Origin: an uncultured Bacteroidales bacterium
GTDB lineage: Bacteria > Bacteroidota > Bacteroidia > Bacteroidales > F082
NCBI GenBank assembly: GCA_946410535.1
Contig: CAMKAR010000037.1
Coordinates: forward strand, 1 to 10,994
Direction: 5' to 3'
DNA: 10,994 nt
The translations under genes were made by a program, and so were the position numbers. Below are positions 3,413-10,361 of the stretch, piece after piece; within the stretch, counting starts at the first letter, position 1, and each line of letters begins with the position of its first letter. The notes below the pieces were generated by a model. The model was given only the letters and a program-made list of their open reading frames with translations. It had not been told where the DNA came from and ran no database searches.

Positions 3413-3454
3413 AAAAAAAGCGGAATGGCCGGACCGTCGCGGCTGGGCCATTCC
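3413..3454 (-). terminator. Intrinsic terminator at the end of the central minus-strand operon
   Basis: The stem GGAATGGCC (3422-3430) pairs with GGCCATTCC (3446-3454), 9 perfect base pairs around a GC-rich loop. On the minus strand it is followed by GC and seven T (3419-3413). It lies about 50 bp after the stop of the XRE regulator and is oriented to end transcripts coming from the right. The plus strand lacks a U-tract. Confidence 0.8.
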
Positions 3455-3506
3455 TAAAATCTAGATGAATCAATAATCAATCTACCCCTGGCGGGGCGAC
3501 TGTTTT

Positions 3507-3821
3507 TCAATGTCCCCTATCCTTCTCCAACACCTCAATGTACTTGTTGAGGTTGGCGATGATGGCATCCTTGGCCTTGCAATCCGCGCATTCACTTTCC
3601 GATGCCTCGACGACATACTTCTCGGGCCAGCCGATGAGGTCGATGACCGAAACCCCCAAGACCCTGCTTATCTCCTCCAGGCGGCTATAGGTGATGTCGC
3701 TCTCGCGGGTGATGAAGCTCGAATAGGAGCATTGCTTGATGCCCAACTCAGCGGCGATTTGCTCTTGCTTGATGTGCTTCGCCTTGCGAACCGCTTCTAT
3801 GTTTTTCAGTATGCTGTCCAT
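3507..3821 (-). CDS. XRE-family helix-turn-helix regulator with CxxC/coiled-coil tail
   Basis: A 104-residue putative DNA-binding protein. Residues about 5-60 form a Cro/CI-type helix-turn-helix: a basic first helix (IEAVRKAKHIKQEQIAAELGI), the recognition-helix region KQCSYSSFITRES, then YSRLEEISRVLGVSVIDLIG. The tail has Cys78 and Cys81 in CADC, followed by a heptad-like helix (KDAIIANLNKYIEVLEKD) that may dimerise the protein; no further Cys pair is present to complete a metal site within one chain. It is the last gene of the central run, 21 bp after the 79-aa gene, and a terminator follows. I infer local autoregulation of the lipoprotein operon, but the operator is not identified. Confidence in the HTH fold is high, in its target low. 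Confidence 0.85.
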   Translation of the reverse strand: MDSILKNIEAVRKAKHIKQEQIAAELGIKQCSYSSFITRESDITYSRLEEISRVLGVSVIDLIGWPEKYVVEASESECADCKAKDAIIANLNKYIEVLEKDRGH

Positions 3822-3842
3822 TAATTATAGTGCTGGCGTTGG

Positions 3843-4082
3843 TTATTCGGGGAAGATTTCCTTATGCACACGGTTGAAGAAGAACGCACCCATGGGCATG
3901 CCCGTCCTTACGAACAGCTCGGCATCCATGTTGGGCATGGCAAACAATGCATCGAGCGTTTCCACGGCTCGACCCGTCTTGTCGGCCAGCCATTCCTCGC
4001 TATGGCCGCTCGCCTGCAAACACTGTTGCAGAAAACGGCCCGCGTGAAACGTGTTGGATAGGTTGTTGGTGTCCTTCTTCAT
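3843..4082 (-). CDS. Small degenerate HTH-like protein
   Basis: A 79-residue protein beginning MKKDTNNLSNTFHAGRFLQQ. It resembles, from memory, a common Bacteroidetes small HTH family with the pattern hIGxLIxxxLxxxGxSxxWLAxKLxxxxxxVYKIFxxxxIDTELLxRIS...FF. Here one sees HAGRFLQQCL, GHSEEWLADKTG, DALFAMPNMDAELFVRTG and GAFFFNRVHKEIF. The middle segment that would be the recognition helix (RAVETLDALF) lacks the usual N-V-Y-K pattern, so DNA binding may be weakened or lost. It lies 30 bp after the second lipoprotein gene and 21 bp before the XRE gene, so the two regulators look co-transcribed. The family link is by eye; an alternative is an unrelated small helical protein. Confidence 0.65.
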   Translation of the reverse strand: MKKDTNNLSNTFHAGRFLQQCLQASGHSEEWLADKTGRAVETLDALFAMPNMDAELFVRTGMPMGAFFFNRVHKEIFPE

Positions 4083-4112
4083 TGTGTTTCTATTATTTTG
4101 CCAGTTTTTTCA

Positions 4113-6200
4113 TCACTTGATCATCAAACGGACAGAAAAGCCAACTGCACGATGAGTATAACTTTTTGCACTTACGACTCCCTCTGTTGTATGTTGAGGT
4201 GAAAATGCAAAAGCGTATGCTTGTCCATCATTGTAGTGGTCGCTCAGCCAATAACGTCCACTATAGTTGCCCCAATTGTCCATTTCCGACTGTGCTCCCC
4301 AGCAACCAGCGCATGGAAGGAACACTACTCCAACGTGTTCTAGTAATGACCACTCTCTTTCTGTATAAGTGGAAAAGTCTGCGATTCCTGTCGGCCACCA
4401 AGCCCCATCAAACGGATTGTTGCCATTATCATCATTAATGTGGGTCGCGACTGTAACAGTGTTAGGCCAGGTGAAGTCATCAGGGAAAAGCATAATACCT
4501 CTAACAATTGTATCATTTACCTGAATGCGGGCAAAGGCGAAGCGTTCGCCCACGCGATTGTGAAGCAGATAATCCATTTGCGATGAACTTGGGGTAAACT
4601 TGTTGGGCCATGCGTTGCTGCCTCCGTTTGAGATGGTGTTAGTTCCCCAATCCGCTCGTCCGTCTGAACTATTGAGGTCGGCAACTCTGTTAGCGTATGC
4701 ATAATAATGGCTTGCGTCACTATCATTATGCCACCTTATCCATGGCTGGTACTGTGTCGCACCGTGCTGTATGTTGCTTGTACCCCATTGAAACACATCT
4801 ACCCATCCGCTATATGTGGAAGCTGCAAAATCGTTGTTGGATCTGATGCCATTGTCTACAACAGTACCAAACTTCATCATCGTTGTTGTACCTGAAGTAG
4901 CGACATTGTGTTCATACCCCACATAGTCGAATTGTCGCTTAGCATAACGCCATGTATTGGTTGATGCTTGATATTGCAGGTTGCCCATGGAGAAATAGCA
5001 CACTTCGTTGGCTGCCGTGTGGAAAGCGCCAGGCAGTTTGCCATTGGTGAAATTCGCTCTTGAGGCAAAAGGAATTGCATCACCATAATAAACGGTATTA
5101 TTGGCGCTTTTTGCGTAGGCCCTCACGTAATAGACGGTGTTTGGCATCAAGCCGGTCATGCTGATGGCGGTTGTGCCCGTTGCGTGGTCACCCGTGGCTA
5201 CGGGGTCGATGGAGGTACCCCAGCAAATGCCGGTTTCAGTGGGTGTTCCATTCGTCACCGAGACCACACCGCCCTTTGCCGATGTCGTGGTGATGTAGGT
5301 CGGGCTTGCCGTGGTCACCTCCAAGGGTATCTCAAGATTTGCACCCACTTTCTTGATCTTGTTACGCTCGATGAGATAGTTACTATTGTTCTCAACATCG
5401 TAAACCACATTGTTGCTGCCGTCGTAGGCGGTCAATCTGAGACCATGGAGCGTGCCTGGAGGCAACATGAAGTAGAAATAGGTCTCAGATGTGCCAAGGG
5501 TGATGCCACTGCCACAGTCGATGGTGATGGTGTTGCCGCCTCCGCTTTGCCAAGCGAGCGTTGGATTGGTCGAACTGCAATCAACCGTGAACACACCGTT
5601 AAGATGGTCGCTCGTGTTAGTGGTAGTCAGCACGACGCGCTGCACGGTGACATTGCTGCCCACCATGGGGAAGCGCAGTCCGCCGCAGGCATTCTTAAAC
5701 TGCAAAGTCTGCGAAGTGGAATAGGCCACCATGGGCACGACCTTCTCGGCAAACAAGTTGCTGCCAGCGTAGGCTTGCGTGGCGGGCAGGTTGAAGGTGG
5801 CATTCTTTCCCGAAAGGCTGTTGGCGATGCCTTCGGAGTTGACATTAGGGTAGATGGCGGCATAGTTGGGATGGAAGAAGTCGTCGTGGGGCTGGCCTGT
5901 GTAGAAGGTGCCGTCGGCGGTGTTTTCGCCTTCGGTAAGTTCGTAGGTGAGCGTGGTTGAAGCACTTGCGTTGTCAGCATTGTTGGCCACCAAGATTTGG
6001 TCGGCAGCAGTCCATTTCACGTTGACCACATTGTCATTTACGCCGACTTCGCCATGGGTGCGGCTGTCGCTCGATTGCTCGATGCTTGCCTTGAAGCCTT
6101 GGCCGTCGGCGGTGCCGCCGTTGTCGTTTTTCTTGCACGAAGCAAGCAGGCTTACCGCCACCAAGCCTATCGTAAGCAATGTAAGATTTGTTTTAGTCAT
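4113..6200 (-). CDS. Fimbrillin-like / FN3-like / FISUMP-type surface lipoprotein (copy B)
   Basis: A 695-residue predicted lipoprotein, probably displayed on the outer membrane. The signal peptide MTKTNLTLLTIGLVAVSLLASC has lipobox LASC with Cys22. Residues about 36-300 resemble Bacteroidetes fimbrillin/Mfa-like domains (VKWTAADQILV, GTFYTG, NYAAIYPN, FNLPATQ, LQFKNACGGLRFPM, VVLTTTNTSDHLNGVFTV). Residues about 300-385 are FN3-like (TTSAKGGVVSVTNGTPTETG, GLMPNTVYYVRAYAKS). The last 300 residues are of the FISUMP type common in gut Bacteroidetes: YFSMGNLQYQASTNTWRYAK, FQWGTSN, DYLLHNRVGERFAFARI, GIMLFPDDFTWP, EWSLLEHVGVVFLPCAGCWG, GRYWLSD and a C-terminal VGFSVRLMIK. The frame is open to 6293, but the ATG at 6200 starts the signal peptide. 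It is a paralogue of the gene just upstream. Ligand or assembly role unknown; an adhesin or pilus-tip-like role is inferred only. Confidence 0.87.
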   Translation of the reverse strand: MTKTNLTLLTIGLVAVSLLASCKKNDNGGTADGQGFKASIEQSSDSRTHGEVGVNDNVVNVKWTAADQILVANNADNASASTTLTYELTEGENTADGTFYTGQPHDDFFHPNYAAIYPNVNSEGIANSLSGKNATFNLPATQAYAGSNLFAEKVVPMVAYSTSQTLQFKNACGGLRFPMVGSNVTVQRVVLTTTNTSDHLNGVFTVDCSSTNPTLAWQSGGGNTITIDCGSGITLGTSETYFYFMLPPGTLHGLRLTAYDGSNNVVYDVENNSNYLIERNKIKKVGANLEIPLEVTTASPTYITTTSAKGGVVSVTNGTPTETGICWGTSIDPVATGDHATGTTAISMTGLMPNTVYYVRAYAKSANNTVYYGDAIPFASRANFTNGKLPGAFHTAANEVCYFSMGNLQYQASTNTWRYAKRQFDYVGYEHNVATSGTTTMMKFGTVVDNGIRSNNDFAASTYSGWVDVFQWGTSNIQHGATQYQPWIRWHNDSDASHYYAYANRVADLNSSDGRADWGTNTISNGGSNAWPNKFTPSSSQMDYLLHNRVGERFAFARIQVNDTIVRGIMLFPDDFTWPNTVTVATHINDDNGNNPFDGAWWPTGIADFSTYTEREWSLLEHVGVVFLPCAGCWGAQSEMDNWGNYSGRYWLSDHYNDGQAYAFAFSPQHTTEGVVSAKSYTHRAVGFSVRLMIK

Positions 6201-6235
6201 CGTTGGTGTTTTGAGTTTAGGTTGTTTTGGCATTC

Positions 6236-6272
6236 CCCCTAAAAAGCCCCCCTGTTGGAGGCTTTTTAGGGG
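6236..6272 (-). terminator. Terminator-like hairpin between the two lipoprotein genes
   Basis: A perfect 13-bp inverted repeat, CCCCTAAAAAGCC (6236-6248) and GGCTTTTTAGGGG (6260-6272), with an 11-nt loop. In the minus-strand RNA it can also form the A-tract/hairpin/U-tract layout of a bidirectional intrinsic terminator, with a GC-rich inner stem followed by UUUUU. It begins 21 bp after the stop of lipoprotein A and ends 35 bp before the ATG of lipoprotein B. No TAnnTTTG promoter was found between it and gene B, so it may act as a partial terminator or as an mRNA-processing hairpin setting the ratio of A to B. Confidence 0.65.
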
Positions 6273-6293
6273 AACACGTGGATTGTCTGTCAC

Positions 6294-8540
6294 TTACGGA
6301 ATCATGAAACGAACCGTAAAGCCAATGTATCTTTCGTCTTTGGCATATGGGTTCACAATGCCTTCGCCGCCTGATTCATAATCATAATGGTGTTTCGGGG
6401 AGAAGGCGAAATCGTATGCTCCAGAATACGGATTGGGGTCTACAAGAGGACGATGGTCGCTTGTCCAGTATCGTCCGCCCGCATTAGTCCACTCCACTTC
6501 TCCAGTGATACCATAGCAACCAGCGGCAGGGAGGAATACCAAGTCATTGTGTTCGAGGAGCGACCACTGTGCTTCCGTGAAATGGTTACCTTCAGGGAGT
6601 TGCCAATTTGTAACCTCCCCAGCCATATTCTGATACTCTTCATTGATGAGTGAAAGTTGATTGTCTACTAACTCAGGCCATTCAAAGCTGTCGGGGAACA
6701 AGAAAATACCATTGACCTTTGCGTCTTTTCTTACAGTGAGTTCAGCGAAAGCGAAACGTGCATTAGAAACACCGTGTACCGTACTAGCGGGGCGTACTTT
6801 GGTTAGATAATTCCATTCGGCGGTACTTCCCGTGTACCTACCATTGGCAGTGCCATTGGTTATGTTGTTGACAGCCCAGTCTGCCGTTGTTCCTGTCAGA
6901 TTGTTTTCTTTATCACCGAAGATATAAAAATGCTCATTTTGGAAATTCTGGTTGTTGTCGTATTCACTAGGATTGGTAGGATTGTAATTCCTCACCCTTC
7001 TCCATGGTTCATTGTAATCTGCACCATTATATTGTCCACTTGTGCCCCAAGCAAAGTAATCGTACCATTGGGTACTGGTGCGCTGGTCTTCTTGCATGGC
7101 ATAGTTGTTGCATTTCGTTCTGGTTTCAACAGGGTCTTCTCCTCCTAAATATACATTACCAGACATAACGCCTTGGCTTGTATTTTCGCCGCCCACATAT
7201 TCAAACTGGTATTCAGCATAGCGCCATTCACTGTTGTTATGTTGCAGGTTGCCCATGGCGAAGGAGACCTGTTTGCTTGGTGAAACAGAGAATACGCCTT
7301 GCAGCTTGCCATGACAGTCGTGTTCATAGTCCCTTCTCGTTGCAAACGGGATGGCTTCGCCGTAGTAGGTCTCGCCGCTCGCGCTAATGGCGTACGCTTT
7401 CACGAAATAAACGGTATTCTTGGTAAGCTCGTTGGCCCAGTCGTTGTAGGCAGTACCACTGGGGGTCATCTCAACACTATAGACGTTGCTGCCCGTCATG
7501 ACGAGATTGTCAGGATTGCCGCTAAGAGCATCATAAGTGGCATAAATAACACCGCATTCGGTAGGTGTGCCGCCAGTCACGGTGCCACCCATCCAAGCCT
7601 TGTCGTAGGAGATGAAGGTCGGGCTAATGGTGGTCACAGTCAGCGGGTCGGAGATGGTGATGGGGGTCTCCACCTTGCTCACCACGCTGCGCTTGATGAA
7701 GTTGGCATGGGTGGTGGCATCCCAGGTGATGTTCTGGTTGTAGATGACATTGTCGCCGTCGTAAGCCGTCACGGTGAATCCGGTGGTCATCGTTTGCGGA
7801 GGCACCATGATGTAGAAGTCCTGCGGTTCGGCAGTGAGGGTGATGCCCGTAGTGCCATTACAAATCAGCTCCACGCTGTTGCTGCCGCCAGAGACGTGGG
7901 TCGGCATGGGGCCGGAGGCCAAATCGCCCGTGGTGGGCACGGCGGTACAATTGGCCGTGAAGGTACCCCACAGCCTGTCGCTCGTGTTCTTTGAGGTGAG
8001 CACAATCTTGGTCACGTGCTTGCCCGCGCCTTGCAGCGGGAAGCAAATGCCGCCGCACACGTTATAGAAATCGAGCTGGTCGGTGGTGGTGTGGGCCACC
8101 ATGGGCATGGCGCCATTGCCGAAAGTGCCAGTCTGCATCATCTGCTGCTGTTGCGGCAGGGAGAAGGTGGCTGTGGTGCCGCTGATGGTCACCTTGTCGT
8201 AGGGGTAGGCAGCCACATAGTTCGGCGAACGGTCAAAGGTCGATCCAGTGTAGAAAGTACCGTTCATTGAGCCAATGCCTTCCACAACCTCGAAAGGAGC
8301 CTGTTGGACGGGGCTGGCACTGTTTTGCACCAAGATAAGGTCGCCGGCCGTCCACTTGATGTCCTCGCCGTCGAGGTAGGTCTTGGCATTGCGGTTGCCA
8401 CCTTCGGTGCTGGCCTTGAAACTGATGCCGTCGAGGTTGAGGTTTGAGTTGGTGTTGCTTGTATTGTTTTCTTTCTTGCACGAGGCAAGCAGGCTGGTCG
8501 CCACCAAGCCTATCATCATTAATCGAAATGGTGTTTTCAT
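6294..8540 (-). CDS. Fimbrillin-like / FN3-like / FISUMP-type surface lipoprotein (copy A)
   Basis: A 748-residue predicted lipoprotein with the same architecture as its downstream paralogue. The signal peptide MKTPFRLMMIGLVATSLLASC has lipobox LASC (Cys21) and shares IGLVA(V/T)SLLASCKK and much of the underlying DNA with copy B. The fimbrillin-like part (about 30-300) shows IKWTAGDLILVQN, GTFYTGS, NYVAAYPYD, FSLPQQQQ, LDFYNVCGGICFPL and IVLTSKNTSDRLWGTFT. An FN3-like segment follows (about 300-400, with TKNTVYFVKAYAISASGETYYG). The C-terminal FISUMP-type module begins SFAMGNLQHNNSEWRYAEYQ and contains DYFAWGTSG, FAFAELTVRK, GIFLFPDSFEWP, QWSLLEHNDLVFLPAAGCYG, GRYWTSDH and GFTVRFMIP at the very end. 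It lies 55 bp after membrane protein A. Function is inferred as surface adhesion or assembly; no catalytic motif is visible. Confidence 0.88.
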   Translation of the reverse strand: MKTPFRLMMIGLVATSLLASCKKENNTSNTNSNLNLDGISFKASTEGGNRNAKTYLDGEDIKWTAGDLILVQNSASPVQQAPFEVVEGIGSMNGTFYTGSTFDRSPNYVAAYPYDKVTISGTTATFSLPQQQQMMQTGTFGNGAMPMVAHTTTDQLDFYNVCGGICFPLQGAGKHVTKIVLTSKNTSDRLWGTFTANCTAVPTTGDLASGPMPTHVSGGSNSVELICNGTTGITLTAEPQDFYIMVPPQTMTTGFTVTAYDGDNVIYNQNITWDATTHANFIKRSVVSKVETPITISDPLTVTTISPTFISYDKAWMGGTVTGGTPTECGVIYATYDALSGNPDNLVMTGSNVYSVEMTPSGTAYNDWANELTKNTVYFVKAYAISASGETYYGEAIPFATRRDYEHDCHGKLQGVFSVSPSKQVSFAMGNLQHNNSEWRYAEYQFEYVGGENTSQGVMSGNVYLGGEDPVETRTKCNNYAMQEDQRTSTQWYDYFAWGTSGQYNGADYNEPWRRVRNYNPTNPSEYDNNQNFQNEHFYIFGDKENNLTGTTADWAVNNITNGTANGRYTGSTAEWNYLTKVRPASTVHGVSNARFAFAELTVRKDAKVNGIFLFPDSFEWPELVDNQLSLINEEYQNMAGEVTNWQLPEGNHFTEAQWSLLEHNDLVFLPAAGCYGITGEVEWTNAGGRYWTSDHRPLVDPNPYSGAYDFAFSPKHHYDYESGGEGIVNPYAKDERYIGFTVRFMIP

Positions 8541-8595
8541 CGTTGTTTAGTATTCTTTTGTTTTCTCTTGTGTTACTTTCATTTGTAAATTCGTA

Positions 8596-8889
8596 CTATG
8601 GGATATAGAAGCCTTCGTCTGTAGGCGTTTCCACCTCACCGTTCAGGAACCGATTTCCTATCTCGTCCATTTCCTTGACCAGTTTCTCCTTTGCGGTCAG
8701 AGGCGCGTCGGGCTGGGCCTGGACATTGATCCATTCGGCCTCGCCACCGTCATTATAGATGAGCACAGCCTTATCGGAGCGTGCGATTCTAACAGCCAGG
8801 AAAACGACTGTGGTAACAAGCCAAAGGCTCAACATGAATAGGAAAATCGATTTCCTCTTTCTTTCCCGTTTTGCTTTTTGCCAATCCAT
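8596..8889 (-). CDS. Small single-pass membrane protein A, unknown function
   Basis: A 97-residue protein not recognised as a member of any named family. It has a strongly basic start (MDWQKAKRERKRKS) and one hydrophobic segment at about 14-34 (IFLFMLSLWLVTTVVFLAVRI). A soluble, acidic C-terminal part of about 60 residues (IYNDGGEAEWINV, EKLVKEMDEIGNRFLNGEV) would lie in the periplasm by the positive-inside rule. Its ATG at 8889 comes only 4 bp after the stop of micro-protein 1, which suggests translational coupling, and 55 bp separate it from lipoprotein A downstream. It has the same length, topology and position relative to a micro-protein as membrane protein B, but sequence similarity between them is slight. 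Role could be anchoring or assisting assembly of the lipoproteins; this is inference only. Confidence 0.75.
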   Translation of the reverse strand: MDWQKAKRERKRKSIFLFMLSLWLVTTVVFLAVRIARSDKAVLIYNDGGEAEWINVQAQPDAPLTAKEKLVKEMDEIGNRFLNGEVETPTDEGFYIP

Positions 8890-8893
8890 TAGG

Positions 8894-9031
8894 TTACGGG
8901 AAAGAGAAATGTTCGGTCGTTACTGCCTCGGTGCTGTTGCCTAGTATGGGCGAGCCGCACAACACGGTTTGGATTTCAAGCTCGATGATTTCGAGCTTCG
9001 GTGCTTCATAACTGTTTCTTTTTTCTCTCAT
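8894..9031 (-). CDS. Micro-protein 1 (45 aa), YExPxxE family-like
   Basis: A 45-codon frame read on the minus strand from ATG 9031 to TAA 8894, between the two membrane-protein genes. It begins MREKRNSYEAPKLEIIELEI, continues QTVLCGSPILGNSTEAV and ends in FSFP. It shares with micro-protein 2 an ordered pattern: aromatic-E-x-P-basic-x-E-(I/V), a Leu, a (V/I)L-x-x-S element, a Gly, a TE pair and a C-terminal FP. Conservation in a second, separate gene at the equivalent operon position supports real coding. From memory, small Bacteroidetes proteins starting K..Y..P..E(I/V).E(L/M) are common but uncharacterised. Its stop is 4 bp before the start of membrane protein A and its start lies 46 bp after the stop of membrane protein B. 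There is no signal peptide; it could be a cytosolic micro-protein or a peptide precursor. Confidence 0.65.
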   Translation of the reverse strand: MREKRNSYEAPKLEIIELEIQTVLCGSPILGNSTEAVTTEHFSFP

Positions 9032-9077
9032 CTGGAAAAGTGTTTAATTGTTACTATTCTGTTATTGTTTGACTTAA

Positions 9078-9371
9078 TCATTCTATGTTTGGTGAAGAAA
9101 TGACGTGGCGCATTTGTTCGTAGGACTGTCGCTTGTTTTGCTCCCTGTCCGAAACCTCTTCGGCGGCCTCTTGGGGTTCGTCGTCAGTACCGAGTTGGAT
9201 GTCGGGATTCGATTTTTCGGTTTTTGCCTTCGGTGTAGGTTGCCCATATTCCACCATGTCGCCATCGGCGGCTCTCAAAAGGAGCATCAGGGCGACCATG
9301 CTTATAACGCAGATTATAATGCAAGCTGCGGTGCGCCATGTGAACTTGTATTTTCCGTCCATTCCTACCAT
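9078..9371 (-). CDS. Small single-pass membrane protein B, unknown function
   Basis: A 97-residue protein with a short basic N-terminus (MVGMDGKYKFTWR), one membrane segment at about 14-33 (TAACIIICVISMVALMLLLR) and a hydrophilic, very acidic and Pro-rich outside part (YGQPTPKAKTEKSNPD, DDEPQEAAEEVSDREQNKRQ). The tail is probably disordered. An alternative start is the second Met at 9362. It follows micro-protein 2 by 23 bp and precedes micro-protein 1 by 46 bp, mirroring the arrangement of membrane protein A. No named family recognised. The pairing suggests it works with the micro-protein or the downstream lipoproteins, but the sequence alone does not say how. Confidence 0.7.
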   Translation of the reverse strand: MVGMDGKYKFTWRTAACIIICVISMVALMLLLRAADGDMVEYGQPTPKAKTEKSNPDIQLGTDDEPQEAAEEVSDREQNKRQSYEQMRHVISSPNIE

Positions 9372-9394
9372 TGTCTTCTGAATTGGGGAATGGA

Positions 9395-9571
9395 TTATGG
9401 GAACACAATCATTTCAGACATGTCGAAACTTTCCGTGTTGGTCAGTCCCATAACGGCCGAACTGGTTAGTATGCCATAAGGGACGAGGTTGAGCACCTCT
9501 GTCCTTGGAGGCTCGTAGGTATGTTGGTGATGGTTGAACAGCGTGGCATTATTAATAAGGTGTGTTGCCAT
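9395..9571 (-). CDS. Micro-protein 2 (58 aa), YExPxxE family-like
   Basis: A 58-residue protein from ATG 9571, beginning MATHLINNATLFNHHQHTYE. The core (residues about 18-58) contains TYEPPRTEVLNLV, then YGILTSSAVMGLTNTESF, and ends in IVFP. This matches micro-protein 1 in the YExP-basic-x-E-hydrophobic motif, the L-x-x-S element, G...TE and the terminal FP. The frame is open to an ATG at 9649, but that start lies against the upstream terminator; the ATG at 9571 has AGGA four bases before it. It is the first gene after the structured leader and 23 bp before membrane protein B. It is a little His/Asn-rich before the conserved core. Function unknown. Confidence 0.6.
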   Translation of the reverse strand: MATHLINNATLFNHHQHTYEPPRTEVLNLVPYGILTSSAVMGLTNTESFDMSEMIVFP

Positions 9572-9650
9572 GATCCTGTATTTCCTCTTCTTTTTCGCCA
9601 ACCGATTCCCTTGTTGGCAGGTCTTCTGTAACTCAAGATAGAAACACATG

Positions 9651-9744
9651 AAAAAGCGTGGGAACCTCTGTCCTATTGCTTATCCCACTAGTCGAGGCTC
9701 TGGTACGCCTATCATCTGAGGATAAGCAATACCGATGCCCACGC
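9651..9744 (-). terminator. Large branched terminator-like hairpin ahead of the operon's first gene
   Basis: On the minus strand an outer stem GCGTGGG (9738-9744) with CCCACGC (9656-9662) encloses an internal loop and a perfect 12-bp inner stem, GGATAAGCAATA (9720-9731) with TATTGCTTATCC (9674-9685). The outer stem is followed directly by TTTTT (9655-9651). The layout is that of an intrinsic terminator, 79 bp upstream of the micro-protein 2 start. It may end a small RNA, or work as an attenuator for the operon. Confidence 0.6.
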
Positions 9745-9858
9745 AGACACATCCATAAGCGCAACACAAAAGTTGCAGGATATGCCTTCCCATGGACGTC
9801 GCCTATTGCCTTATCGTGCAGATGATTGAATTTACCAGATTCGACTAGTGCAGATAAG
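9672..9858. repeat. Pair of hairpin elements with direct arms and inverted loops
   Basis: Element 1 (9672-9731) and element 2 (9802-9858) share the arm CCTATTGC(C)TTATC in direct orientation (9672-9684 and 9802-9815) and the closing arm GATAAG (9721-9726 and 9853-9858). Their 32-33-nt loops are inverted relative to each other. On the plus strand element 1 reads CACTAGTCGA, TCTGGTA, ATCATCTG (9686-9718), and element 2 carries the reverse complements of these blocks in reverse order (9819-9850). The spacer between the elements is about 70 bp. No recombinase gene is in the window. Confidence 0.7.
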
Positions 9859-9932
9859 ACGTAGCACAACGCCTCGTCATTATGTTTGTCATCCGCCCAC
9901 TAACCCCACGGGGCATCGGCCAAATGACGCGG

Positions 9933-9964
9933 CAAAAATAGTGCTTTTTTTTGTATCGGGGCAA
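9933..9964 (-). promoter_or_regulatory. Bacteroidetes-type promoter for the leader RNA and central operon
   Basis: On the minus strand the -7 box TATTTTTG (9933-9940) matches TAnnTTTG. A TTGC (9961-9964) 20 bp upstream may serve as the -33 element, the same arrangement as in the lipocalin-gene promoter. Transcription would begin near 9926. No other -7 match was seen ahead of micro-protein 1, the membrane-protein genes or lipoprotein B, so this is the best candidate for driving the whole run. Confidence 0.6.
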
Positions 9965-10097
9965 CTATTTCGGAAAAATAATTCGCATCGCAAATAAAGC
10001 GCAACTAAGAAATATAGGAAAAAGCCTTTGGTTTTGGCGAAAAAACGTAAAGTTCCTTTTCAGATACTACGCTCCCATTCGCATCGACAAAACAGAA

Positions 10098-10361
10098 TCT
10101 TTTGTCAAGTATTTCACCATTGAGGTGCGCAACGGACAGCCCGATAAGTTCATGCCTCGCTTGGAAGCCTTGTTTGCAGGACAAGACTACATTTACATCT
10201 TTGAGTTCAAGATTGACAAGTCGGCTGACGAGGCATTGAAGCAAATCGAGGAAAAGCAATACGCCAAGCCTTTTGAGCAAGATGGACGCAAACTCTATAA
10301 AATCGGCGTGAACTTTTCAAGCTCGACAAGGCGGATTGAAGGCTGGAAGGTGGCAGATTAA
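10098..10361 (+). pseudogene. Remnant of AAA-ATPase-like / PD-(D/E)XK nuclease gene with internal deletion
   Basis: The plus-strand frame encodes FVKYFTIEVRNGQPDKFMPR and LEALFAG, then jumps straight to YIYIFEFKIDKSADEALKQI and the C-terminal KIGVNFSSSTRRIEGWKVAD. This is the C-terminus of the large Bacteroidales ATP-binding family with an N-terminal AAA-ATPase-like domain and a C-terminal PD-(D/E)XK (PDDEXK_9-type) domain, about 500 residues when intact. The whole ATPase part is missing. About 45 residues between LFAG and the YIYIFEFK strand are also missing, including the GR(I/A)D strand that supplies the catalytic Asp; only the E-x-K of EFK remains. There is no suitable start codon upstream: the frame opens at a TTG at 9951, and the codons from there to 10097 show no homology I recognise. 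The product would be inactive. Confidence 0.75.

Follow-up and report, generated by a model that had tools for sequence, protein, structure and literature searches.

A minus-strand lipoprotein operon of a Bacteroidales bacterium with a structured leader RNA and candidate RiPP-like YxxP micro-proteins

Operon layout and encoded proteins

The window, which is the whole stretch of 10,994 nucleotides of an uncultured Bacteroidales bacterium that was analysed, contains a minus-strand operon encoding two related micro-proteins, two single-transmembrane (TM) mini-proteins, two paralogous lipoproteins and two small regulators, with a good terminator at its end:

9933..9940, minus strand: Bacteroidetes-type -7 box TATTTTTG, promoter-like, about 56 nt upstream of the leader RNA, not above chance alone
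9395..9571, minus strand: MicA, 58-aa YxxP micro-protein (ORF and family alignment)
9078..9371, minus strand: MemA, 97-aa single-TM mini-protein (ORF and topology)
8894..9031, minus strand: MicB, 45-aa YxxP micro-protein, about 50% identical to many micro-proteins in relatives
8596..8889, minus strand: MemB, 97-aa single-TM mini-protein (ORF and topology)
6294..8540, minus strand: LipA, 748-aa lipoprotein with an Mfa-like fold at 35-299, FN3 at 298-404 and a C-terminal half (405-748) that was not matched
4113..6200, minus strand: LipB, 695-aa paralogous lipoprotein (homology to LipA)
3843..4082, minus strand: Reg79, small protein, directly behind a lipoprotein in three relatives and 65% identical to the copy in L050
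3507..3821, minus strand: HTH104, HTH_3/Xre-type regulator (HTH_3, E 2.1e-9)
3413..3454, minus strand: intrinsic terminator of the operon (fold of -21.8 kcal/mol, z -2.2, followed by a U run)

The ORF listing reproduced the eight minus-strand ORFs in the order given by an earlier sequence-only reading of this DNA, and the clear terminator proposed at 3413-3454 was likewise recovered. The short intergenic spacing also held, with measured gaps of 23, 46, 4, 55, 93, 30 and 21 nt, that is, 4-93 nt instead of the claimed 4-92 nt. The claim of a clear promoter at 9933-9964 stood only in part: a perfect TAnnTTTG box, which we take to be the Bacteroidetes promoter consensus, occupies 9940-9933, but boxes of this kind number five in the window, against 5.3 expected by chance. 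The box also precedes several related leaders, as judged by eye. Regarding the proposed twofold repeat of a micro-protein and membrane-protein pair, MicA and MicB are weakly related (E 1e-5) and MemA and MemB have the same topology, although the latter two could not be aligned by BLASTP. MemA, MemB and six relatives have a loose C-terminal motif in common, and two homologues of MemB, one of them 99% identical, were found among 5.8 billion proteins in a search that requires shared 5-residue words. HTH104 agreed with the description of two HTH-type proteins, whereas Reg79 matched no Pfam or NCBIfam model.

LipA and LipB were confirmed as paralogues (36% identity, E 9e-122), and the predicted Mfa-type fold of LipA supported their description as fimbrillin-like surface lipoproteins. 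The Mfa fold is linked to type V pili. The LipA model, built from a 50-sequence alignment, replaced a single-sequence model that was useless (pLDDT 28.6); FN3 domains formed its top Foldseek rows. A PDB search by the LipA sequence profile gave no match. Because LipA alone matches no Pfam or NCBIfam model, the FISUMP label of the earlier reading rests on relatives: among 18 aligned lipoproteins, three match TIGR02145, two PF09603 and three Lcl_C (PF07603). No anchor, tip or fibre-assembly gene was recognised in the operon by Pfam or NCBIfam.

Structured leader RNA upstream of the operon

The region upstream of MicA contains the following elements, and the structured leader RNA was absent from the earlier reading:

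9645..9876, minus strand: structured leader RNA, a long irregular hairpin (folding and covariation in alignment A9)
9738..9744, minus strand: GCGUGGG, 5' strand of a proposed pseudoknot, complementary to CCCACGC
9674..9731, minus strand: competing 12-bp hairpin UAUUGCUUAUCC/GGAUAAGCAAUA, with arms at 9674-9685 and 9720-9731 that are 100% complementary
9656..9662, minus strand: CCCACGC, 3' strand of the proposed pseudoknot, followed by U5 (98.6% of A9 cells pair)
9651..9688, minus strand: competing terminator-like helix GUGGGA/UCCCAC with the U5 tract (96% of A9 cells pair)

The 354-nt leader folded at -133.9 kcal/mol (z -5.3); one shuffle-based regional folding run used 25 shuffles per region. 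Leader relatives were found at the DNA level in 37 of 149 genomes of the family. Alignment A9 of this group (group B) comprised the window and 20 of the 30 loci from that search, leaving out L289, a near-copy of L284, and, as duplicate or partial matches, L286 (same as L285), L288, L290, L292, L294-L296, L301 and L302. In A9, whose structure RNAalifold had predicted from these 21 sequences themselves, 97.9% of pair cells were kept, 21 of the 57 pairs showed compensatory changes, and double-change cells numbered 119, compared with 31.9 in shuffles and at most 18 when slid. G-U exceeded A-C cells by 117 to 9 (about 13:1). As judged from this alignment, the window's leader was shown to be an RNA-level structure preserved by compensatory change, with an RNA-type G-U bias. 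The leader had no Rfam match at E<=1. When 40 copy-bearing loci were scanned against Rfam at E<=0.1, three matches appeared, none of which reached the gathering score: one to a miRNA model over the element in L166, one to a miRNA model in L170 and one to fluoride in L303, the last two both outside the element. No known Rfam family fitted among the copies tested.

The sister group (group A) was represented by alignment A7, in which 94.9% of cells were paired and 41 of 47 pairs covaried across 55 copies, these being matches of model R1 at E<=1e-6 in 53 chosen loci, with the alignment fitted to the model. Double-change cells in A7 numbered 466 against 125 shuffled, and the ratio of G-U to A-C was 297:25 (about 12:1). 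Sister-group models found copies in at least 72 of 149 genomes of the family and at least 105 of 295 of the order, with at most 18 and 9 candidates, respectively, scored per genome. A group-A covariance model matched the window's leader weakly (23.3 bits, E 0.0021), another group-A model run recovered it in part at 13.2 bits, ranked second below a spurious hairpin, and model R1 had no window match at E<=10. Uniting groups A and B thus rests on their common layout, because recovery by the group-A covariance model was weak or partial.

Among 99 RNA copies (77 of group A and 22 of group B, after seven antisense matches were dropped), 97 were immediately followed, within about 160 nt, by a gene on the same strand, and L265 and L266 had no called gene. 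Exported-like proteins, scored by an author-made hydrophobicity rule, were encoded by 71 of these 97 genes and by 111 of 314 control ORFs, the controls being ORFs of at least 100 aa from the same kind of loci and the test proteins ranging down to 40 aa. YxxP micro-proteins accounted for 15 of the 97 genes, one of them scored as exported by the script. The copies stand before very different genes, and L271 has two RNA elements with their own genes.

The competing helices share the leader's 3' strand, which fits cis control, and the leader may switch through transcription termination. Covariation of the proposed pseudoknot was absent in A9 and little in A7, and the local fold of the terminator-like stretch at 9651..9688 was no better than shuffles (z -0.3). 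Alternatively, the leader may act without any switch, either as a trans-acting small RNA with its end or processing site at the U tract, or as a stable 5' cap that merely protects the mRNA. The great stability of the hairpin, the promoter-like box just upstream, the U tract at the end and the diversity of the genes behind the copies are consistent with this explanation, whereas the placement of 97 of 99 copies directly before a same-strand gene and the 3' strand common to the competing helices argue against it, and we consider it rather unlikely.

YxxP micro-proteins and candidate maturation genes

Among micro-protein ORFs, which were chosen by the pattern Y.{1,3}P, the Y and P of YxxP were invariant in 25 of 25 aligned sequences, and YxxP was present in all 120 homologues listed (the best 120 of 410), of which 96 end in P and 19 in W. 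MicA is without the Cys that is otherwise near-invariant. Over 14 micro-protein pairs, a pooled pN of 0.139 against a pS of 0.335 showed the signature of purifying selection on the YxxP micro-protein.

The survey of micro-proteins covered 64 places in 60 genomes, 60 of the places being read (G156:C6, G084:C11, G154:C13 and G164:C18 lay outside the reading) and 57 having room, with L111, L133 and L134 too close to a contig end. A micro-protein stood directly before a lipoprotein in 54 of these 57 places (the script called 52; L124 is actually a phage-type integrase, and L107, L118 and L121 were recognised as lipoproteins by eye), the exceptions being L105, L110 and L124. Nineteen of the 60 places lie in profile-building loci; in the other 41 (L101-L140 and L154), the order was kept in 35 of the 38 with room. 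The TM mini-protein is an optional third part of the pairing in relatives. The parts thus share a neighbourhood in relatives rather than being scattered. By gene order, the micro-protein was shown to be paired with a predicted fimbrillin-like lipoprotein, and we infer a role for this pairing.

No maturation gene for the micro-proteins was found within the window. In relatives, PqqD and NTP_transf_5 genes adjoin the micro-protein in 19 of 64 places, and 45 of 64 are not beside the enzymes. PqqD was present in 13 of 13 genomes with enzyme-unlinked micro-proteins and in 11 of 47 others (p 5e-7, a value that ignores kinship), and the PqqD-type RRE (B1) occurred in all 21 micro-positive genomes of the 60 relatives. 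Relative genomes with micro-protein/lipoprotein pairs were thus shown, by profile matches, to carry PqqD and NTP_transf_5 genes. In L117, PqqD (E 6e-14) and NTP_transf_5 (E 5e-31) were both over the cut-off, and the S24-like (E 2e-4) and HprK-related (E 4e-6) matches were both under the curated cut-off. The features by which a RiPP system is recognised, namely a short precursor with a conserved recognition half, an RRE and tailoring genes, were found in relatives only. Because YxxP is a published recognition motif, characterised for lasso peptides in the sections consulted of PMC12710340 and PMC10368454, we read the micro-proteins as RiPP-like precursors. The results point to precursors whose maturation genes would lie mostly elsewhere in the genome, and the micro-proteins may undergo peptide modification. 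The earlier suggestion of a role for the micro-proteins in sorting or regulating the lipoproteins was not supported; YxxP and the co-occurrence with PqqD and the nucleotidyltransferase suggest a RiPP-like precursor. Since the B2 leader peptidase (Transglut_core3) was found in 0 of 60 genomes, with the controls Bacteroides ihuae and Haloferax volcanii matching, one over the cut-off, the lasso class was excluded. No lasso cyclase (asparagine-synthetase-like, C) was evident in the gene clusters read.

The micro-protein could instead be a small cytoplasmic partner or adaptor that is bound by PqqD-like proteins or the nascent lipoprotein chain and tunes lipoprotein synthesis or export. Its strict position before the lipoprotein, the 45 places away from PqqD and a C-terminal end that is conserved in kind rather than hypervariable among the homologues listed fit an adaptor, whereas YxxP, the linkage to PqqD and NTP_transf_5 and the 13/13 co-occurrence are what a precursor, but not an adaptor, would be expected to show. 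We regard an adaptor as unlikely, somewhat more so than a leader without a switch.

Proposed scenario and comparison with known systems

A DNA-level element (a transposon end, an integron-like site or an invertible promoter) that spreads surface-gene cassettes could also explain the leader's multiple copies before unrelated genes, the many copies that, in fragmented genomes, sit 100-400 bp from a contig end, and the two elements of L271. The features of attC sites form the background to the integron-like comparison. Because a strand-neutral DNA hairpin would not give the G-U over A-C asymmetry seen in both groups, an integron-type or other DNA hairpin is disfavoured; the arms do not enclose the promoter-like box, against an invertible promoter, and the exact consensus pattern, a strict pattern and hence weak evidence on virus-borne copies, was unmatched in viral_contigs. 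We consider such an element improbable. Equally improbable is a plain fimbrial or adhesin operon with incidental small ORFs, which the predicted Mfa-type fold of LipA would fit, whereas the micro-proteins show conservation at the protein level (pN < pS) and recur at the same place in many genomes.

Considering these results, we propose, at even odds (a probability of about 0.5), that the operon produces a modified peptide and a surface lipoprotein partner under the control of a structured leader RNA. Transcription may start at the TAnnTTTG box. The nascent leader would adopt one of two forms, namely the long hairpin, closed by the outer helix, or a fold whose 3' CCC(A/G)CGC strand, just 5' of the U tract, pairs either with GCGUGGG (pseudoknot) or with the local GUGGGA, and this choice would make the polymerase halt or continue into MicA. 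A PqqD-type recognition protein would bind the micro-proteins via YxxP, an HprK-like kinase and a nucleotidyltransferase would modify them in trans, and an S24-like peptidase and an ABC transporter would trim and export the products. The lipoprotein encoded with each micro-protein may be its surface partner, for example a holder, receptor or immunity protein. More tentatively, and at clearly less than even odds, switching leader RNAs of a hitherto undescribed class may, across the order Bacteroidales, govern many separate exported-protein genes via one shared signal, with one branch of the regulon consisting of scattered YxxP peptides that are matured in trans by PqqD, kinase, S24 and nucleotidyltransferase proteins, each with its own fimbrillin-like surface partner.

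The surface lipoproteins of Bacteroidales determine encounters with hosts, phages and rivals. In many related bacteria, genes for surface proteins follow an RNA of the same layout, which may thus be a widespread switch in control of the bacterial surface. A common leader of this kind, if real, would offer simple access to that surface, and standard RNA methods could serve to search for its signal. One maturation locus serving many precursor-lipoprotein pairs would, if true, be a further RiPP-like architecture, and one that mining by gene clusters would probably overlook, since most of the precursors found lay away from the enzymes (45 of 64). The RNA leader and the RiPP-like reading of the micro-proteins go beyond the earlier reading of the operon, and descriptions of the leader RNA and of the micro-protein system were not found in the open-licence PMC literature searched.

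The leader resembles the Rfam RNAs Bacteroidales-1, Bacteroides-1 and Bacteroid-trp, as well as riboswitches and attenuators, in its folded 5' leader form, its predicted competing helices and the U tract at its end. Unlike these cis-regulatory RNAs, it is multi-copy before unrelated exported-protein genes and has no known ligand, and the tested copies fit no Rfam family. The Rfam comparison leaves out Bacteroides-2 and GUCCY-hairpin, which have no Rfam number in the part of PMC2864571 consulted. LipA differs from the Mfa-like fimbrillin or adhesin lipoproteins of Bacteroides (PDB 3t2l, 4k4k and 3ufi) by its FN3 domain and FISUMP-like C-terminal half. Bacteroidales RiPPs mined earlier (PMC10352776) likewise have small precursor-like ORFs; a word search of the main text of that paper returned no YxxP, nucleotidyltransferase, HPr or S24, and PqqD in a reference only. 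Lasso clusters with a PqqD-type RRE (B1), an HprK-like kinase and a nucleotidyltransferase include, in the sections consulted, Bradymonas bsf (PMC10368454) and the Paenibacillus HPr kinase and pseudomycoidin systems as cited in PMC7533575, and what these sections describe shares with the micro-protein system the YxxP leader motif and discrete PqqD, kinase, nucleotidyltransferase and ABC transporter genes. Unlike in those clusters, B2 was absent from all 60 relative genomes, and the putative precursors are numerous and scattered, each being accompanied by a fimbrillin-like lipoprotein.

Operon layout and the micro-protein family

Eight genes separated by gaps of 4-93 nt run from MicA to HTH104 on one strand of the window, a Bacteroidales-type contig, and end at a convincing terminator.

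9571-9395, minus: MicA, YxxP micro-protein ORF, first operon gene
9371-9078, minus: MemA, 97-aa single-TM mini-protein ORF, second
9031-8894, minus: MicB, YxxP micro-protein ORF, third
8889-8596, minus: MemB, 97-aa single-TM mini-protein ORF, fourth
8540-6294, minus: LipA, lipoprotein ORF, fifth
6200-4113, minus: LipB, lipoprotein ORF, sixth
4082-3843, minus: Reg79, small protein ORF, seventh
3821-3507, minus: HTH104, HTH_3/Xre-type regulator ORF, eighth
3454-3413, minus: operon terminator, downstream of HTH104

This operon and its lipoprotein fold are almost certainly real. With 36% identity between them, LipA and LipB are paralogues, and MicA bears a weak likeness to MicB. MemA and MemB gave no alignment with each other. 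What they and six other such proteins share is a single TM segment at the N-terminal end and, at the C-terminal end, a loose motif; a common origin of the two is possible. By eye, Reg79 resembles small HTH-like proteins with a WFA/WLA pattern that are found either ahead of micro-proteins or immediately after leader RNAs (loci L049, L050, L068, L115, L132, L133, L274, and L278). Divergent from the operon, the ORF at 9951-10361 (plus strand) matches PF08011 (PDDEXK_9) positions 43-105 (E 4e-13) and, carrying only this C-terminal part, looks like a remnant of a longer gene. Where convergent genes stopping at 1889 and 1897 meet, a 14-bp hairpin with a T-rich tail (1846-1876) is probably their common terminator.

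Loci around LipA relatives (16/149 family genomes, E<=1e-20) yielded 25 aligned micro-proteins, none of which departs from the Y or P of the YxxP motif or from one Ser; a near-invariant Cys (LC[AGS]S) is absent from MicA. The resulting profile had 410 matches in a large protein database, with YxxP in 120/120 of those listed, and 64 places in 21 of 60 genomes of the genus. Among the 60 places read, 57 had downstream room, and a fimbrillin-like lipoprotein followed in 54 of these, with or without an intervening Mem protein (35/38 once 19 places in profile-building loci were excluded). Pooled pN over 14 pairs was 0.139 against a pS of 0.335; the micro-proteins are therefore proteins under purifying selection. 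At L124:5969-7802, a YxxP micro-protein and a TM mini-protein precede a phage-type integrase (PF00589, E 2e-19) in place of a lipoprotein. Mini-proteins near micro-protein loci (L001:7204-7461, L064, and L068) carry a signal peptide, and their C-terminal tail, P[LV]GxG-TM-basic, resembles a sorting signal.

PqqD loci and a RiPP-like reading

The micro-protein adjoins PqqD and NTP_transf_5 genes in 19/64 places. In L117, L122, L142, and L154, an HprK-like kinase comes first, then an S24-like peptidase, PqqD, NTP_transf_5, micro-protein, and lipoprotein; in L117, PqqD (E 6e-14) and NTP_transf_5 (E 5e-31) score above the Pfam/NCBIfam cut-off and S24 (E 2e-4) and the HprK-related kinase (E 4e-6) below it, the kinase and peptidase elsewhere being named by likeness. 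In L143 and L144, the same four genes precede what by eye is an ABC-type transporter, and L141 and L127 combine a YxxP-lipoprotein pair with a nucleotidyltransferase and an ABC transporter.

All 21 micro-protein genomes are among both the 24/60 with PqqD and the 27/60 with NTP_transf_5. Because some micro-proteins themselves adjoin PqqD, co-occurrence was retested on unlinked copies: PqqD occurred in 13/13 genomes with unlinked micro-proteins versus 11/47 others (p 5e-7, uncorrected for kinship), and in 8 of these 11 a micro-protein is linked to PqqD. Among the relatives found, G001 is closest to the window, matching LipA residues 7-240 at 74% identity; it has the four-gene locus (L142) and a second locus (L141), from which we infer that the window's organism may have such maturation loci too.

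According to PMC12710340, YxxP is a characterised recognition motif in lasso leaders, and several RiPP classes have RREs binding W/Y/LxxP-type motifs; PMC10368454 describes a lasso cluster that combines an RRE with a kinase, a nucleotidyltransferase, and an ABC transporter. No member of the leader peptidase family of lasso peptides was found (0/60 genomes), and the micro-protein system is therefore not called lasso. The best reading would be a RiPP-like system in which the precursors are scattered, a lipoprotein partner being encoded with each, and there is a maturation locus. Micro-proteins as putative PqqD-bound precursors are slightly favoured, and the lipoprotein as the peptide's partner is a tentative proposal.

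Leader RNAs upstream of the operon and its relatives

The 354 nt between the TAnnTTTG box and MicA, which include the window leader (group B; 9645-9876, minus), fold at -133.9 kcal/mol (z -5.3; 0/100 shuffles as low). As a DNA query the leader found relatives in 37/149 genomes, full-length ones at ~70% identity. Across 21 aligned leaders (A9), 97.9% of 57 pairs are kept, with 119 double-change cells versus 31.9 shuffled and at most 18 slid, and 117 G-U versus 9 A-C cells. We consider the group-B leader a functional RNA, with a probability of roughly 0.93.

Regions upstream of micro-proteins reached z -3.9 or lower in 15/29, and those that fold divide into sequence groups; two tested regions beside a PqqD locus had no strong fold (L117, z -1.7; L122, z 0.3). 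The consensus of the sister group A (A5, 10 sequences) has 25/47 pairs backed by compensatory change, and its covariance model found copies in at least 72/149 genomes. In 55 copies aligned to this model (A7), 94.9% of pairs are kept, 41/47 covary, and double-change cells number 466 versus a shuffled mean of 125 and at most 88 slid. G-U cells outnumber A-C cells, 297 versus 25: selection on the group-A structure acts at the RNA level, on the strand of the gene. With a second covariance model, copies turned up in at least 105/295 genomes of the order.

Groups A and B have a common layout, comprising a 5' GCGUU element, an apical GCGUGGG, a CC-containing bulge, a 3' C(A/G)CGC, and a U tract, and on this basis probably form one family. 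The window leader was not listed at E<=10 by group-A model R1; R2 scored it at 23.3 bits (E 0.002). With filters off, a spurious hairpin (1876-1838) outscores a partial leader match (9850-9686).

A same-strand gene starts within ~160 nt of the leader 3' end in 97/99 copies; 71/97 encode exported-looking proteins, versus 111/314 control ORFs, and 15/97 encode YxxP micro-proteins. In L205-L213, nine group-A leaders precede a small exported protein of ~100-129 aa and then, by eye, a lipoprotein with a FISUMP-like end; the small protein is an alternative occupant of the micro-protein slot. One 7-kb contig carries two leaders (L271:2508-2678 and 4642-4806), each with its own small exported gene run. 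In the fragmented genomes G180, G337, G234, G334, G197, and G355, several leader copies lie, repeat-like, 100-400 bp from contig ends, a position that could point to arrays or to spread in recent times.

Possible switching and comparison with known systems

The leader 3' strand has three possible pairings, with the apical GCGUGGG, in a local GUGGGA/GCGGGA helix, and in the outer helix. In A9, 98.6% of pseudoknot cells pair with hardly any variation, so that this alignment is silent on covariation there, and 96% of local-helix cells pair. In A7, the pseudoknot could be anchored in 54/55 copies, nearly all with the first five pairs; the sixth fails in 12 and shows one clean double change (L221). 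Three copies (L055, L065, and L119) pair a neighbouring stretch instead, GGGCUUUAC with its complement. Window positions 9731-9720 and 9685-9674 offer a further alternative, a perfect 12-bp pairing. Competing helices ahead of the U tract suggest conditional termination by the leader, which we rate as an even prospect; the local terminator form alone, no more stable than shuffles, speaks against it.

Among the Rfam families, none fits the window leader; PMC2864571 also has two Bacteroidetes motifs that carry no Rfam number. Against 40 loci with leader copies, Rfam likewise gave no fitting family and three weak matches, one of which, a miRNA model in L166 below gathering score, overlies the element. 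No description of the leader RNA was found in the open-licence PMC literature searched. As kinds, leader RNA, RiPP-like peptide, and fimbrillin lipoprotein are known; if the switch were shown, the RNA part would stand out further.
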